NCBI RefSeq assembly: GCF_018128545.1
Contig: NZ_JAGSND010000003.1
Span: 124,001 to 188,000, forward strand
Origin: Sinanaerobacter chloroacetimidivorans
Lineage (GTDB): Bacteria; Bacillota; Clostridia; Peptostreptococcales; Anaerovoracaceae
Direction: 5' to 3'
Length of the DNA stretch: 64,000 nt
Shown here: one piece after another, positions 14,686 through 20,332 of the stretch
Layout of the letters: each line of letters begins with the position of its first letter
Numbering within the stretch: position 1 is the stretch's first letter
The notes under the pieces: model-generated
The model's input: the letters and a program-made list of their open reading frames with translations, nothing else
Databases searched by the model: none
What the model was told of the DNA's origin: nothing
Made by a program: the position numbers and the translations under genes

Positions 14686-14710
14686 GAATGCAATTCTATT
14701 AGAGAAAGAC

Positions 14711-14936
14711 AGTGATGGAGAGAGTAAGTATTTTTCAAACGTCACAGCGATTCGAGGATGGTGGGAGCTCGATACAATTAGAAAAATTACCGAAAATCAC
14801 TCCTGAGTCGCAGGCCGAAATAGCAGTAGGTTTTGACGGTTTTCCCCCGTTACAGGGAGCGCGTATGTTGGTATGCAGTAATAGGTGGTATAACGATAGC
14901 TATAGCTTTCGTCCTTTGCAGGGCGAAAGTTTTTTT
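14711..14936 (+). promoter_or_regulatory. T-box riboswitch, specifier AUC (isoleucine)
   Basis: A full T-box leader. The stem I base GGAG (14717-14720) pairs with CTCC (14800-14803), followed by AGAGAGTA and the distal-loop signature GATGGTGGGAGC. The specifier region GAAA-ATC-A has the codon at 14796-14798. The T-box sequence ATAGGTGGTATAACG is near 14881. The terminator stem is CTTTCGTCC/GGGCGAAAG (14906-14929) plus T7. Uncharged tRNA-Ile should favour antitermination and switch on the oxidoreductase operon. The alternative register TCA (Ser) is less likely because the conserved A then would not follow the codon. Confidence 0.88.
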
Positions 14937-14991: not shown

Positions 14992-15570
14992 ATGAAAGAT
15001 ATCGTAGAAATTCGCTGGCACGGCCGGGGCGGCCAAGGTGCCAAGACAGCCTGTCTGCTTCTGGCAGACGTGGCTTTCAGTTCGGGAAAGCACGTACAGG
15101 GTTTTCCAGAATACGGTCCTGAGCGTATGGGCGCTCCCATAACCGCATACAACCGGATCAGCCATGACCGATGTACGGTTCATTCCAACATTTACAACCC
15201 GGATTACGTAGTGGTGGTGGATGAAACCTTGCTGACATCGGTAGATGTAACAAAAGGATTGAAAGAAGACGGCGCGATTATTATTAACAGCGATAAGAAA
15301 CCGCATGAACTGAGACCCCTGTTAAGAGGGTATCAAGGAAAGGTTTATACCATTGACGCAAGAAAAATTTCCGAAGAAACTTTAGGCAGAAATTTCCCCA
15401 ATACGCCCATGCTGGCTGCTGCCGTCAAGGTGAGCAATGTCGTGGATGCCGAGCATTTTATTCAGAACATGGAAGCTTCTTTCAAGCATAAGTTTGCTTC
15501 CAAACCCCATGTAGTAGCGGGAAATATGAATGCACTGAGAAAGTCTTTGGAGGAGGTAGACGCCGGATGA
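14992..15570 (+). CDS. 2-oxoacid:ferredoxin oxidoreductase, gamma subunit
   Basis: 192 residues; AAGGAGG upstream of ATG 14992. RWHGRGGQGAKTA near the N-terminus is the signature of the gamma subunit of the pyruvate/2-oxoisovalerate:ferredoxin oxidoreductase family. This subunit helps bind CoA in the complex that converts 2-oxoacid + CoA + oxidised ferredoxin to acyl-CoA + CO2 + reduced ferredoxin. First gene of a tightly overlapping gamma-delta-alpha-beta operon behind an isoleucine T-box. That points to branched-chain oxoacids, working either oxidatively or as a reductive carboxylase; a pyruvate enzyme cannot be excluded. Confidence 0.9.
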   Translation: MKDIVEIRWHGRGGQGAKTACLLLADVAFSSGKHVQGFPEYGPERMGAPITAYNRISHDRCTVHSNIYNPDYVVVVDETLLTSVDVTKGLKEDGAIIINSDKKPHELRPLLRGYQGKVYTIDARKISEETLGRNFPNTPMLAAAVKVSNVVDAEHFIQNMEASFKHKFASKPHVVAGNMNALRKSLEEVDAG

Positions 15571-15872
15571 TTAAGAAAGCTAGTGAAATTAATGAAACAA
15601 CTCCCTGGCAGGAAATGACCGTAGGGGGAGAAATCTATGAAGGCGGTACTGCCGCATTGGTAAATACAGGGGATTGGAGAACCTATACCCCTGGATTTTT
15701 GGCAGAGAAATGTACCCACTGCATGTTATGTATCCCTTATTGCCCGGACAGTTCCATTCCCGTAAAGGATGGAAAACGTCAGAATTTTGATCTGATGCAT
15801 TGTAAGGGCTGCGGTATCTGCTATAAAGTATGCCCTATGAAAGCTATCACGTTTGACAAGGAGGGTGCATGA
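15567..15872 (+). CDS. 2-oxoacid:ferredoxin oxidoreductase, delta (ferredoxin) subunit
   Basis: 101 residues; ATGA overlap with the gamma gene. Two [4Fe-4S] motifs, CTHCMLCIPYCP (about residues 51-62) and CKGCGICYKVCP (about 81-92), make this the electron-exit subunit that passes electrons from the TPP centre to soluble ferredoxin. Size and spacing match the family. The next gene overlaps it by 4 bp. Confidence 0.92.
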   Translation: MIKKASEINETTPWQEMTVGGEIYEGGTAALVNTGDWRTYTPGFLAEKCTHCMLCIPYCPDSSIPVKDGKRQNFDLMHCKGCGICYKVCPMKAITFDKEGA

Positions 15873-17068
15873 TGACCATACGAGATCGACTGTCTGGCAA
15901 TGAGGCCGTTGCTTATGCAATGAAACAAATCAATCCGGACGTCATGGGAGCATTTCCCATTACACCGTCCACCGAAATTCCCCAATATTTTGCTACATAT
16001 GTGTCCAATGGAGAAGTGGACACAGAATTCGTTGCCGTAGAATCGGAACATAGTGCCATGTCTACCTGTATTGCGGCTCAGGCTGCCGGAGGCAGAGCCA
16101 TCACCGCCACATCTTCCTGCGGTATGGCACTGATGTGGGAACTGCTCTATGTCGCATCCTCCGCCAGGCTGCCTGTTACCATGGCACTGGTAAACCGCGC
16201 TTTAACCGGCCCGATCAATATCAACAACGACCATTCTGATTCCATGGGTGCAAGGGACAGCGGATGGATTCAGATCTATTCGGAAACCAATCAGGAAGCT
16301 TATGATAATTTTATCCAAGCGATGCCTATCGGTGAAAATAAAGAGGTAAGATTGCCGGTGATGGTCTGTCAGGACGGATTTATCACCAGCCATGCCGTTG
16401 AAAATATAGAGCTGCTGGAGGATGAAAAGGTAAAGGAATTTGTGGGAGAATACTGCCCGGAAAACTACCTGCTGAAAAAAGAAAATCCTCTTGCTGTTGG
16501 CCCTTATGATATCTCAAATTATTATATGGAGCATAAAAAACAGCAGGCGGAAGCCATGAAAAACGCAAAGCCTGTTATCCTTTCCGTAGCGAAAAAATTT
16601 GAAGAGCTTTCCGGAAGAAGCTACGGCTTATTCGAAGAGGTGGAAATGGATGATGCGGAGTATGCTCTGGTTATCATCGGCTCCAGTGCCGGAACAGCAA
16701 AAGAAGCCATCAGAAGGCTGAGAAAAGAAGGAAAAAAAGTCGGTTTAATTAAAATCAGAGTGTTCCGTCCATTCCCCATGGAAGAGCTGGCGAAAGCCTT
16801 AGGTCATGTCAAAGCCGTTGCGGTAATGGACAAGGCCGAAAGTTTTTCGGCCTGCGGCGGACCTTTGTTTGCTGAAGTGCGCTCTGCACTTTATGATCTG
16901 GATCATCGTCCTAAAGCCATCAACTATGTCTACGGTCTTGGCGGAAGAGATATCTGCGTAGAGGACTTTGCTTATATCTATGATCAGCTCGATGAGATTG
17001 TAAAGACCGGAAAGACAGGGGAAACCTATCGTCACATCGGACAGAGAGAATTGGGAGGTGGCAGATAA
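15869..17068 (+). CDS. 2-oxoacid:ferredoxin oxidoreductase, alpha subunit
   Basis: 399 residues starting at ATG 15869 (a second ATG follows at once). Contains the family motifs GNEAVAYAM, GAFPITPSTEI, VESEHSAM and NRALTGPININNDHSDSMG. The last loop is found in pyruvate/oxoisovalerate synthases and contacts substrate. This subunit binds substrate together with the TPP-binding beta subunit. The sequence is closest in feel to archaeal-type four-subunit enzymes. Which oxoacid is used rests on the Ile T-box, not on a residue I can read. Confidence 0.9.
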   Translation: MMTIRDRLSGNEAVAYAMKQINPDVMGAFPITPSTEIPQYFATYVSNGEVDTEFVAVESEHSAMSTCIAAQAAGGRAITATSSCGMALMWELLYVASSARLPVTMALVNRALTGPININNDHSDSMGARDSGWIQIYSETNQEAYDNFIQAMPIGENKEVRLPVMVCQDGFITSHAVENIELLEDEKVKEFVGEYCPENYLLKKENPLAVGPYDISNYYMEHKKQQAEAMKNAKPVILSVAKKFEELSGRSYGLFEEVEMDDAEYALVIIGSSAGTAKEAIRRLRKEGKKVGLIKIRVFRPFPMEELAKALGHVKAVAVMDKAESFSACGGPLFAEVRSALYDLDHRPKAINYVYGLGGRDICVEDFAYIYDQLDEIVKTGKTGETYRHIGQRELGGGR

Positions 17069-17997
17069 TGGCTTATAGTTTAAAAAAAGAAGTAGAAAAA
17101 CCGGAACGTCTGGTGGGAGGTCATCGCCTTTGCGCCGGCTGCGGTGCTTCCATTGCCGTTCGAGGTGTTTTGAGAGCTTTAAAACCCGAAGATAAAGCGG
17201 TGATTACCAATGCAACCAGTTGTCTGGAGGTATCCTCCTTTCTTTATCCCTTTACCGCCTGGCAGGATAGTTATATCCATAGTGCCTTTGAAAATGCGGG
17301 AGCAACGGCAGGCGGAGCAGAAGCTGCTTACCGTGTGCTGAAGAAGAAAGGCAAAATAGATGAAACCTTTAAATTTATTGCTTTCGGCGGTGATGGCGGT
17401 ACTTATGACATCGGGCTTCAATCCCTGTCCGGAGCCATGGAACGTGGTCACGACATGGTTTACGTTTGTTATGATAACGAAGCCTATATGAATACGGGAA
17501 TTCAGAGATCTTCTTCAACTCCGAGGTTTGCTGATGCCACCACGACACCGGTAGGAACTGTAATTCCGGGAAAACCTCAGAATAAAAAGGATCTGACCGC
17601 AATCATTGCAGCTCACAATATCCCTTATGCGGCACAGACCACCTTTATCAGCAACTTCAAGGATCTTCACGAAAAAGCTGAGAAAGCCATTTATACGGAG
17701 GGTCCTGCATTTTTGAACATCATGTCTCCCTGCCCCCGGGGCTGGAGATATGACCCTGAAAATCTTGCTGAAATCTGCAAAGCGGCTGTGGATACTTGCG
17801 TCTGGCCTTTATATGAAATTGAATATGGCGTTTGGAAGCTAAACTATGAGCCAAAGAAAAAGCTCCCAGTGGAAGAATTTCTGAAGCTCCAGGGCAGATT
17901 CAAGCATATGTTTAAAAAAGGAAACGAGTGGATGCTGGAAGAAGCACAGAACTATGTCGACCAAAAATGGGAAACTCTCCTGGCGCGCTGTAAATAA
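17068..17997 (+). CDS. 2-oxoacid:ferredoxin oxidoreductase, beta (TPP) subunit
   Basis: 309 residues; TAATG overlap with the alpha gene and GGGAGGTGG before the start. Thiamine-diphosphate motif GGDGGTYDIG...DNEAYMNTG (about residues 107-149) and cluster cysteines in LCAGCGAS and MSPCPRGW. It carries the TPP cofactor and the proximal [4Fe-4S] cluster. Last gene of the operon; no obvious terminator follows before the next promoter at 18057. Confidence 0.92.
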   Translation: MAYSLKKEVEKPERLVGGHRLCAGCGASIAVRGVLRALKPEDKAVITNATSCLEVSSFLYPFTAWQDSYIHSAFENAGATAGGAEAAYRVLKKKGKIDETFKFIAFGGDGGTYDIGLQSLSGAMERGHDMVYVCYDNEAYMNTGIQRSSSTPRFADATTTPVGTVIPGKPQNKKDLTAIIAAHNIPYAAQTTFISNFKDLHEKAEKAIYTEGPAFLNIMSPCPRGWRYDPENLAEICKAAVDTCVWPLYEIEYGVWKLNYEPKKKLPVEEFLKLQGRFKHMFKKGNEWMLEEAQNYVDQKWETLLARCK

Positions 17998-18056: not shown

Positions 18057-18085
18057 TTTACAAACTTAGACGCTTGTGTTATGAT
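18057..18085 (+). promoter_or_regulatory. Sigma-A promoter of aromatic amino acid operon
   Basis: TTTACA (18057-18062), 17-bp spacer, TATGAT (18080-18085). The transcript would begin near 18092, upstream of the leader peptide. Confidence 0.7.
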
Positions 18086-18163
18086 GGGAAAAATTAATGT
18101 ATATTCATAAAATTGATAAATTAAGGAAAAGATAAATTTATAAATTTATCTGAGGAGAGTAAC

Positions 18164-18274
18164 ATGTTGCACGCATTTTCTGCAGTGGGATATTATTACG
18201 GAAGCTTTACTTCTTATTACGGAGGTAAGGCTATTTTGAATTTCACCGCAAGTGTGCACCATAACAATTCGTGA
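18164..18274 (+). CDS. Tyr/Phe-rich leader peptide of transcription attenuator
   Basis: A 36-codon frame with a good GAGGAG site 7 bp before ATG. The peptide contains GYYYGSFTSYYGG: five Tyr (positions 10-12, 18, 19) and Phe at 5, 15 and 27. It precedes a terminator hairpin and the DAHP synthase/prephenate dehydrogenase genes, the classical layout of ribosome-mediated attenuation. Scarcity of Tyr-tRNA (perhaps also Phe-tRNA) would stall the ribosome on the Tyr run. Confidence 0.85.
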   Translation: MLHAFSAVGYYYGSFTSYYGGKAILNFTASVHHNNS

Positions 18275-18336
18275 CAGGAAAATACCTGAAAAGAATCAAT
18301 GGGCTCCGTAGTGAAATTCACTGCGGGGCTTTTTTT
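18237..18336 (+). promoter_or_regulatory. Attenuator: antiterminator and terminator of the aro/tyr operon
   Basis: TGAATTTCAC (18237-18246, inside the leader-peptide frame, after the Tyr codons) is perfectly complementary to GTGAAATTCA (18311-18320). The latter includes the loop and left arm of a terminator whose 11-bp stem joins 18303-18313 and 18319-18329, followed by seven T (18330-18336). Stalling on Tyr codons frees the first segment and blocks the terminator. Translation to the stop at 18274 covers it and allows termination. Confidence 0.85.
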
Positions 18337-18404
18337 ATCGAATAGGAAATATCGAACTTTTTTTATTTTACCAAATAAGCGGAAAAATTAATGGAGGTAT
18401 CAAA

Positions 18405-19421
18405 ATGGTAGTCATATTAAAAAATAATCCCAATCAAAAGCAGTTGGATAATCTGATCCAGTGGCTGAAAAGTCTGGACATTGATATTCATATCTCTCAG
18501 GGCCGAAATACAACGATATTGGGCCTTATCGGCGACACATCCGTGGTGGATATCGACCTCATCAGTGCCTTGGATATCGTGGAAGCGGTGAGAAGAATCC
18601 AGGAACCATATAAAAATGCGAACAGAAAGTTCCATCCGGAAGACACGGTGATCGATGTCAACGGAGCAAAGATCGGAGACGGCAGCTTTCAAATTATGGC
18701 AGGGCCCTGCTCGGTGGAATCAAAGGAACAAATTTGCTCCGTCGCTGAGAGCGTAAAGAGATCCGGGGCCGGTTTGCTGAGGGGAGGCGCCTTTAAACCG
18801 CGTACTTCTCCTTATGCATTTCAGGGAATGCGGGCTGAAGGCATTGAACTGCTCCTGGAAGCAAAAGCGCTGACAGGATTGCCTATCGTGACGGAAATTA
18901 TGGACTTGTCCCAGCTTCCCTTGTTTGAAGAGGTGGATGTGATACAGGTAGGAGCGAGAAATATGCAAAACTTTGAATTGCTGAAGGAGCTTGGCAGAAC
19001 CAGCAAGCCGATTCTTTTAAAAAGAGGACTGGCAAACACTCTGCAGGAACTCCTGATGAGCGCCGAATATATTATGGCCGGAGGCAATGGTCAGGTAATT
19101 TTATGTGAAAGGGGTATTCGTACCTTTGAAACAGCGACGAGAAATACCCTGGATATTTCCGCCGTACCCTTGCTGAAAACGATGACACATCTTCCGATTA
19201 TTGTAGATCCCAGTCATGCCACGGGACTGTCCAAACTGGTAAAACCTATGGCTATGGCGGCAGCTGCCGTAGGGGCAGACGGCATTCTCATAGAAGTGCA
19301 CAACGATCCCATGCATGCTCTCTGTGACGGCCAGCAGTCATTGACCCCGGAAGCCTTCGATGATTTGGTGCAAAGTATAAGCCATATCCTGCCTTACGCA
19401 TATAAAGAACAGACGAAATAA
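18405..19421 (+). CDS. aroF: 3-deoxy-7-phosphoheptulonate (DAHP) synthase, type I-beta with ferredoxin-like domain
   Basis: 338 residues; TGGAGG before ATG 18405. The N-terminal ~67 residues form the ferredoxin-like regulatory domain of the Thermotoga-type enzyme, followed by the TIM barrel with [21 protein letters not shown] and VDPSHATG. It condenses phosphoenolpyruvate and erythrose-4-phosphate in the first step of the shikimate pathway. The ferredoxin-like domain in this class mediates Tyr/Phe feedback inhibition, which fits the Tyr-rich attenuator upstream. So the pathway is likely controlled at both enzyme and transcript level. Co-transcribed with prephenate dehydrogenase. Confidence 0.95.
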
Positions 19422-19486
19422 ACCGCCAGGAGGAGCAGGCAGCATTGCCGAAGGATGGTAATGAATTGCCAGGAAGGAGAACGCAT

Positions 19487-20332
19487 ATGAATATCGGAAT
19501 TGTCGGCTTGGGGTTGATCGGAGGGTCCGTTGCCAAAGCCATCAAACAAAATACGGAACATTCGGTATATGGAACAGATCTTAAAGAATCTGTCATCTAC
19601 AAGGCCAAATTAATTGAAGCCATCGACGACAGGCTGACGGAGGAAATCCTGGGGATTTGCGATATGGTGATCATTGCCGTCTACCCCGGAGAAACCATAA
19701 AATATATAGAAGAGCATCAGAAGCTGTTCCAAAAGGGCTGCCTTGTATTGGATTGCTGCGGTGTAAAAGAAGCCGTATGCGGCAGGGTCCGATCCATTGC
19801 CGCGGAAAACGGCTTTACGTTCGTAGGGGCACATCCCATGGCAGGTGTTGAGTTTTCAGGATTTGAGCATTCCCAGAAGACTCTTTTCAGAAATGCTTCC
19901 ATGATTCTGACCCCGGAAGTGGATATGACAATACAGGATATGGAAAAGCTGAAAAAATTATGGGTTTCCATTGGATTTACCAATGTGCAGATCTCCAATC
20001 CGAAGGAACATGACAGGCGTATTGCCTATACCTCTCAACTTGCCCATGTCGTTTCCAGTGCCTATATTAAAAGTCCTACAGCAGAAGATCACAAGGGTTT
20101 TTCGGCCGGAAGCTTTAAAGATTTGTCCAGGGTGGCCAAATTGAATCCCACCATGTGGACCGAGCTTTTTCTCCTGAACCGGGAGAATCTCACGGAAGAA
20201 ATCAGTACCATGATACGGCATTTGGAGGAATACCGCGACGCCATTTCTCAGGGCAATGAAAAAGACCTTTGGAATCTGCTCAATGAGGGAACAGAACGAA
20301 AGATCTTAATCGATAAAAATACGAAGAAATAA
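19487..20332 (+). CDS. tyrA: Prephenate dehydrogenase
   Basis: 281 residues from ATG 19487, preceded by AGGAAGGAG; an upstream in-frame TTG at 19445 has no such site. Rossmann motif GIVGLGLIGGS at the N-terminus, AHPMAGVEFSG in the middle and YTSQLAHVVSSA in the helical domain, as in TyrA enzymes that oxidatively decarboxylate prephenate to 4-hydroxyphenylpyruvate with NAD(P)+. There is no chorismate mutase or ACT extension. Second gene of the tyrosine-attenuated operon, 65 bp after DAHP synthase. Confidence 0.93.
   Translation: MNIGIVGLGLIGGSVAKAIKQNTEHSVYGTDLKESVIYKAKLIEAIDDRLTEEILGICDMVIIAVYPGETIKYIEEHQKLFQKGCLVLDCCGVKEAVCGRVRSIAAENGFTFVGAHPMAGVEFSGFEHSQKTLFRNASMILTPEVDMTIQDMEKLKKLWVSIGFTNVQISNPKEHDRRIAYTSQLAHVVSSAYIKSPTAEDHKGFSAGSFKDLSRVAKLNPTMWTELFLLNRENLTEEISTMIRHLEEYRDAISQGNEKDLWNLLNEGTERKILIDKNTKK

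Follow-up and report, generated by a model that had tools for sequence, protein, structure and literature searches.

By what means is transcription of the aroF-tyrA operon of the clostridial species Sinanaerobacter chloroacetimidivorans controlled? In Escherichia coli, aroF-tyrA is under the control of the TyrR repressor, and T-boxes are generally viewed as the amino-acid sensors of the Firmicutes. We analysed a 64,000-nucleotide stretch of DNA, hereafter the window, which sits in a 420-kb contig of a genome with an estimated contamination of 8.1%. All window features described below lie on the + strand unless stated otherwise. The first gene of the operon, aroF (18405-19421), encodes a DAHP synthase (NF006421, 490.7 bits against a cut-off of 335; TIGR01361) with PF18152 and PF00793 domains, while tyrA (19445-20332; TTG start as listed, with an ATG at 19487 as a possible alternative) encodes a prephenate dehydrogenase (PF02153, PF20463), so that both genes are those named in the first-pass annotation of this DNA. 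The operon ends with tyrA, and the next genes downstream are encoded on the minus strand.

A porCDAB-like 2-oxoacid:ferredoxin oxidoreductase operon (14992-17997) precedes the locus. Directly 5′ of it is a T-box-like leader (14703-14919; 82.7 bits, below the Rfam cut-off of 93) with its own terminator and an apparent AUC (Ile) specifier, while five relatives (G219, G261, G237, G103 and G157) carry T-boxes several kb 5′ of an aroF gene that bears a leader of the type described here. The Ile T-box-like leader, together with the T-boxes in these five relatives, suggests a role for the oxidoreductase in branched-chain amino acid metabolism.

Upstream of aroF, a 36-codon open reading frame (18164-18274) runs from an ATG to a TGA stop codon at 18272-18274 and encodes the 36 amino acid peptide MLHAFSAVGYYYGSFTSYYGGKAILNFTASVHHNNS. 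It is preceded by a Shine-Dalgarno sequence, GAGGAGAG, which can be read at about 18153-18160, and GGAG is found in the same position upstream of the leader in close orthologues. The YYY and YY runs reported in the first-pass annotation are readily located in this frame, the first as TAT TAT TAC (18191-18199; codons at 18191, 18194 and 18197), which would serve as the sensor codons, and the second as TAT TAC (18215-18220; codons at 18215 and 18218). Three single Phe codons are also present, at 18176, 18206 and 18242, of which that at 18206 lies between the Tyr clusters. As is characteristic of leader-peptide attenuators, a short, Shine-Dalgarno-preceded frame thus carries a codon run that matches the amino acid of the operon downstream. 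A sigma-A type promoter, TTTACA-N17-TATGAT with a TG before the -10 element, is located at 18057-18085, with an expected transcript start at about 18091-18093. Although it has 10/12 matches and a 17-nt spacer, the promoter scan alone is at chance level (two found against 1.9 expected), and the promoter is supported because TTTACA followed by TATGAT or TAAGAT precedes the leader in seven close orthologues. Between the promoter and the leader, just 5′ of the Shine-Dalgarno sequence, an A+T-rich 9-bp hairpin, GATAAATTTATAAATTTATC (18132-18151), is stable in the leader RNA fold and might tune translation of the leader.

The RNA spanning 18092-18345 folds at -72 kcal/mol, compared with -47.6 kcal/mol (sd 4.1) for shuffled sequences (z -5.9), a result in line with the folding check proposed in the first-pass annotation. 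The leader is separated from the first structural gene by an intrinsic terminator (3:4; 18302-18336) with a stem formed by 18302-18314 and 18318-18330, an AAT loop (18315-18317) and a T7 tract (18330-18336). The T7 tract is as originally described, while the stem, previously given as 11 bp, is slightly longer at 13 bp when G-U pairs are counted. A terminator scan returned this site at 18301-18331, as one of two such sites in the region against a mean of 0.1 in shuffles.

Two further pairings compete around this terminator. Segment 1 (18181-18198), the 5′ strand of the anti-antiterminator (1:2), overlaps the first Tyr codons and pairs with 18237-18250, and in the computed fold of the RNA to 18300 with the ribosome absent, the probability of 1:2 is 0.88. 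The anti-antiterminator therefore overlaps the YYY sensor codons, while an inner 12-bp hairpin nested within it (18203-18232; computed fold) carries the second Tyr cluster. Segment 2, TGAATTTCAC (18237-18246), is contained in the coding sequence of the leader and can alternatively pair with segment 3, GTGAAATTCA (18311-18320), of which it is the exact reverse complement over 10 bp. Segment 3 comprises the top four left-arm positions of the terminator, its AAT loop and the three positions at the start of the right arm; the complementarity to the left arm and loop noted earlier is hence exact and extends into the right arm. The resulting antiterminator (2:3) and the terminator are mutually exclusive, and the antiterminators of relatives likewise target the terminator left arm and loop. 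The second Tyr cluster, TTATTACGGAG (18213-18223), is also complementary to CTCCGTAGTGA (18304-18314) in the lower part of the terminator's left arm; as an alternative or extended antiterminator this pairing was dropped, as by eye it seems weaker in relatives.

It is highly probable that aroF-tyrA is controlled by ribosome-mediated attenuation of transcription, tuned to tyrosine and of the type known from the trp and phe operons of E. coli, as predicted from the sequence. With ample charged Tyr-tRNA, the ribosome translating the leader would pass the Tyr codons, and 1:2 would pair behind it or segment 2 would be occupied; segment 3 would consequently be free to enter the 3:4 terminator, and transcription would end at 18330-18336. 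When charged Tyr-tRNA is scarce, the ribosome would stall on the YYY codons (18191-18199) and cover segment 1, so that segment 2 would engage segment 3 over the terminator loop, which would prevent the terminator from forming and allow transcription of aroF-tyrA. The leader stop codon is 25 nt past segment 2 and a terminating ribosome would therefore not directly cover this segment, unlike in trpL. At equilibrium, the complete terminator is favoured for every modelled ribosome position, with a 3:4 probability of about 0.95 at 18330. The switch must therefore be kinetic, taking place during transcription, like that of known attenuators.

The leader is retained in the nearest orthologues (L120-L126), whose AroF proteins are 80-85% identical to that of the window, with the peptide consensus FAAEYxYxSFTSYYYYGGKAxLxFTAK and MVKPVFAAEYAYVSFTSYYYYRGKAYLSFTAKRCNSCS as an example. 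Their Tyr clusters are preserved through synonymous TAT/TAC changes and in-frame indels of 3 or 6 nt. The second cluster takes the form YYYY or YYW, while the position of the first is likewise Tyr-rich. In an alignment of 12 leaders, 98.1% of cells in the terminator are paired, with four pairs changed on both sides (slid controls ≤52%), while 94% are paired in the nested hairpin, with three pairs changed on both sides, and 95.8% in the antiterminator, where only G-U changes are observed. Segment 1 is 80-94% paired in close orthologues, and slid controls across the helices of the 12-leader alignment reach 14-59%. The order of these elements is conserved, as are the Tyr codons and the complementary segments, whose loss from alignments had been named in the first-pass annotation as grounds for rejecting its reading.

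The occurrence of such leaders was surveyed at 193 clostridial aroF loci, in the 420 nt 5′ of each gene, with every locus oriented by tblastn and the named relatives being mostly Clostridia. A locus was scored where a Shine-Dalgarno-preceded frame, in which aromatic residues make up four or more of eight, was found with a terminator within 110 nt. This combination is present at 136/193 loci (about 70%), compared with 3/193 dinucleotide-shuffled and 0/193 reverse-complemented controls, and when the threshold is raised to six aromatic residues in eight, 107/193 loci and none of the controls pass. The expectation in the first-pass annotation that ribosome-mediated attenuators of aromatic synthesis are less common than T-boxes in Clostridia needs qualification for this aroF lineage, in which the leader peptide predominates, while T-boxes are found on the two other DAHP synthase loci of the genome.

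Whether the pairing segments evolved together was assessed at 111 loci (AroF <90% identical) by comparing the pairing of each segment with its own partner and with that of other loci over 10,000 permutations. For 2:3, own partners pair at -18.4 kcal/mol and swapped partners at -12.8 kcal/mol (0/10,000 permutations), while the values for 1:2 are -20.9 and -15.7 kcal/mol, respectively (0/10,000 permutations). The control pairing 1:3, for which the model expects no preference, also shows a gain, of 0.6 kcal/mol (-8.5 against -7.9 kcal/mol; 14/10,000 permutations), indicating that part of the signal stems from composition or relatedness, though this excess is about nine times smaller. The same result was obtained with a stricter AroF identity cut of 80% (75 loci), and coevolution of the pairing segments was also observed in a first set of 59 loci. 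Across the 111 loci, segment 2 starts a median of 16 nt past the last aromatic codon (10-90%: 9-36 nt), a constant spacing by which a ribosome stalled at this codon would leave segment 2 free. The survey against its controls and the co-variation of both 1:2 and 2:3 lend strong support to the reading of ribosome-mediated attenuation first proposed for this locus, under which the regulation itself is predicted.

The codon composition of the leaders differs with operon content. Most relatives have mixed Tyr/Phe leaders (e.g. YFYF and YYFYYFFF) before aroF-tyrA-aroB-aroA(-aroC) operons. Mixed leaders are also carried by two cultured relatives, Anaerotignum neopropionicum DSM 3847 (L054) and Oscillibacter valericigenes Sjm18-20 (L094). 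In the aroF-tyrA-aroB/A operons (n = 80) the Tyr fraction averages 0.47, with a median of 0.45. Leaders before aroF-tyrA alone average 0.72 (n = 9, including the window), while those of operons without tyrA average 0.34 (n = 10), the extreme being FFFFFGFFFF in L017. The plain p-value for this relationship is 9e-6, with kinship ignored, and is no evidence by itself given the few independent events on the AroF tree, which holds about two changes to tyrA-only and about seven to no-tyrA operons. The latter provide four usable pairs, with on average 2.3 concordant and about zero discordant. The association of Tyr-dominated leaders with operons of aroF and tyrA only may thus be regarded as a consistent trend across these sequences, rather than a proven rule.

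Other leader types were also encountered. In other families of the order (L022, L024, L025 and L027-L030), the leader peptides are longer and share a conserved core, for example SWGYYFSAGYLFYKK. Several contain Trp codons besides Tyr and Phe codons, and this type may respond to all three of the aromatic amino acids. Aromatic leaders furthermore precede aroF in two metagenome-assembled genomes (L096 and L097), one with the label Lentisphaerae, where pheA lies downstream, and one with the label Treponema. The operon may have been transferred horizontally along with its attenuator, or the bins may carry wrong labels.

Besides the aroF of the window, the genome encodes two further DAHP synthases, for a total of three. 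One belongs to an aroF-aroB-aroC-pheA-aroA operon (L206; G000:C1:526000-538500) preceded by a Phe T-box (specifier UUC), while the other closes a trpEGDCFBA-aroF operon (L205; G000:C11:23500-36500) preceded by a Trp T-box (specifier UGG). The specifier codons are predictions, read by position in covariance-model alignments, while the names trpD, trpF and trpA were assigned from the translated sequences. Six related genomes likewise have a T-box directly 5′ of a paralogous aroF, and two of the related genomes show the trp-type arrangement. From this gene content we infer that the window leader would supply the tyrosine branch of an all-RNA scheme with three parts, a Tyr leader, a Phe T-box and a Trp T-box.

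Inter-operon terminators are common, and the hairpin at 18302-18336, which lies 300 nt beyond the end of the porCDAB-like operon (17997), could be viewed as the ordinary terminator of that operon and the small reading frame as a chance occurrence. A conserved promoter is, however, located between the two operons, 5′ of the leader, and the near absence from controls of the leader-terminator combination found at 136/193 aroF loci, the co-variation of 1:2 and 2:3, and the synonymous changes and in-frame indels in the Tyr clusters render this explanation very improbable. Still less credible is that a tRNA-binding T-box or a metabolite riboswitch operates here and that the reading frame is incidental. 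T-boxes do govern the paralogous aroF operons in this genome, but the features conserved at the window locus are a coding sequence and alternating helices. A covariance-model search of the genome for T-boxes (RF00230) gave no match at 18092-18340, and in Rfam scans of the window and of the leader alone no family reached threshold, the best of the weak, chance-level hits at the leader being a trpB motif (21.7 bits against 59).

A broader signal than tyrosine merits more consideration, namely that the leader responds to the supply of aromatic amino acids as a whole (Tyr and Phe), or to the general speed of translation, with the Phe codons at 18176, 18206 and 18242 contributing. The mixed runs of most relatives, with the median Tyr fraction given above for the 80 aroF-tyrA-aroB/A operons, fit this proposal, as do the three Phe codons of the window leader, including the one between its Tyr clusters. 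The consecutive runs in the window clade are, however, of Tyr (YYY/YY and YYYY) while its Phe codons are single, and another DAHP synthase is already under Phe control by way of the UUC T-box. We thus consider this proposal unlikely, if distinctly less so than the two preceding ones, and retain the tyrosine-tuned attenuator as the preferred reading.

In the leader-peptide attenuators of E. coli and other enterobacteria, pheL-pheA and trpL-trpE, the leader frame is rich in the regulated amino acid. The window leader resembles these in its short, cognate-rich frame, its exclusive 1:2, 2:3 and 3:4 helices and a U-tract terminator before the first biosynthetic gene. It differs from them in being located on aroF-tyrA and in another phylum, in that its segment 2 is part of the leader frame and its segment 3 spans the terminator loop, and in carrying a second Tyr cluster in an extra hairpin nested in 1:2. 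The T-box leaders (RF00230) of the paralogous aroF operons likewise couple the sensing of charged tRNA to termination control of a DAHP synthase operon but, unlike the window leader, bind the tRNA directly without translation and have Phe (UUC) or Trp (UGG) specifiers.

The nearest description is that of the uORFC-13-1 motif, a predicted upstream frame that contains Phe codon(s) and is accompanied by a terminator, 5′ of aroF in Acholeplasma, for which attenuation was predicted (PMC8632094). It shares with the window leader an upstream frame with aromatic codons and a terminator before aroF. Its 24 examples derive only from Acholeplasma and environmental sequences and have a Phe run (PMC8632094), whereas, as compared by text description, the clostridial leaders have Tyr or mixed Tyr/Phe codons and coevolving 1:2 and 2:3 pairings. 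Attenuation by runs of cognate codons in place of T-boxes has likewise been predicted in Firmicutes for His leaders, in Peptostreptococcaceae, Erysipelotrichales and the Bacillus cereus group (PMC9413887), and by Naville and Gautheret, who presented leader peptides as novel in Firmicutes, for hisS/hisZ of bacilli (PMC2965389), though the amino acid and operons differ. No Rfam family matches the window leader, and no report of an aromatic leader-peptide attenuator in Clostridia was found in a search of the open literature, with subscription journals mostly outside its scope. While the predicted mechanism is a classical one, the lineage, the breadth and the pairing with T-boxes appear to be new.

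On balance, we favour the view that aromatic leader-peptide attenuators of DAHP synthase operons constitute a large class in the Clostridia that has gone undescribed, with a Tyr/Phe mix set by the products of the operon, and that in the lineage of the window three isozymes are matched by three RNA sensors of charged tRNA, the ribosome for Tyr and T-boxes for Phe and Trp, as an all-RNA counterpart of the AroF/AroG/AroH division of E. coli. A ribosome-based attenuator would then be the usual control of DAHP synthase operons in many gut and rumen Clostridia, alongside T-boxes on paralogous operons in one cell, and the many short, unannotated open reading frames 5′ of aroF would thereby be given a function. 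As the leader codons differ between operons, they provide a naturally occurring series in which the evolution of sensor specificity can be tested, while the set of leaders may serve as a test of when a lineage picks the ribosome or the T-box for the same task.
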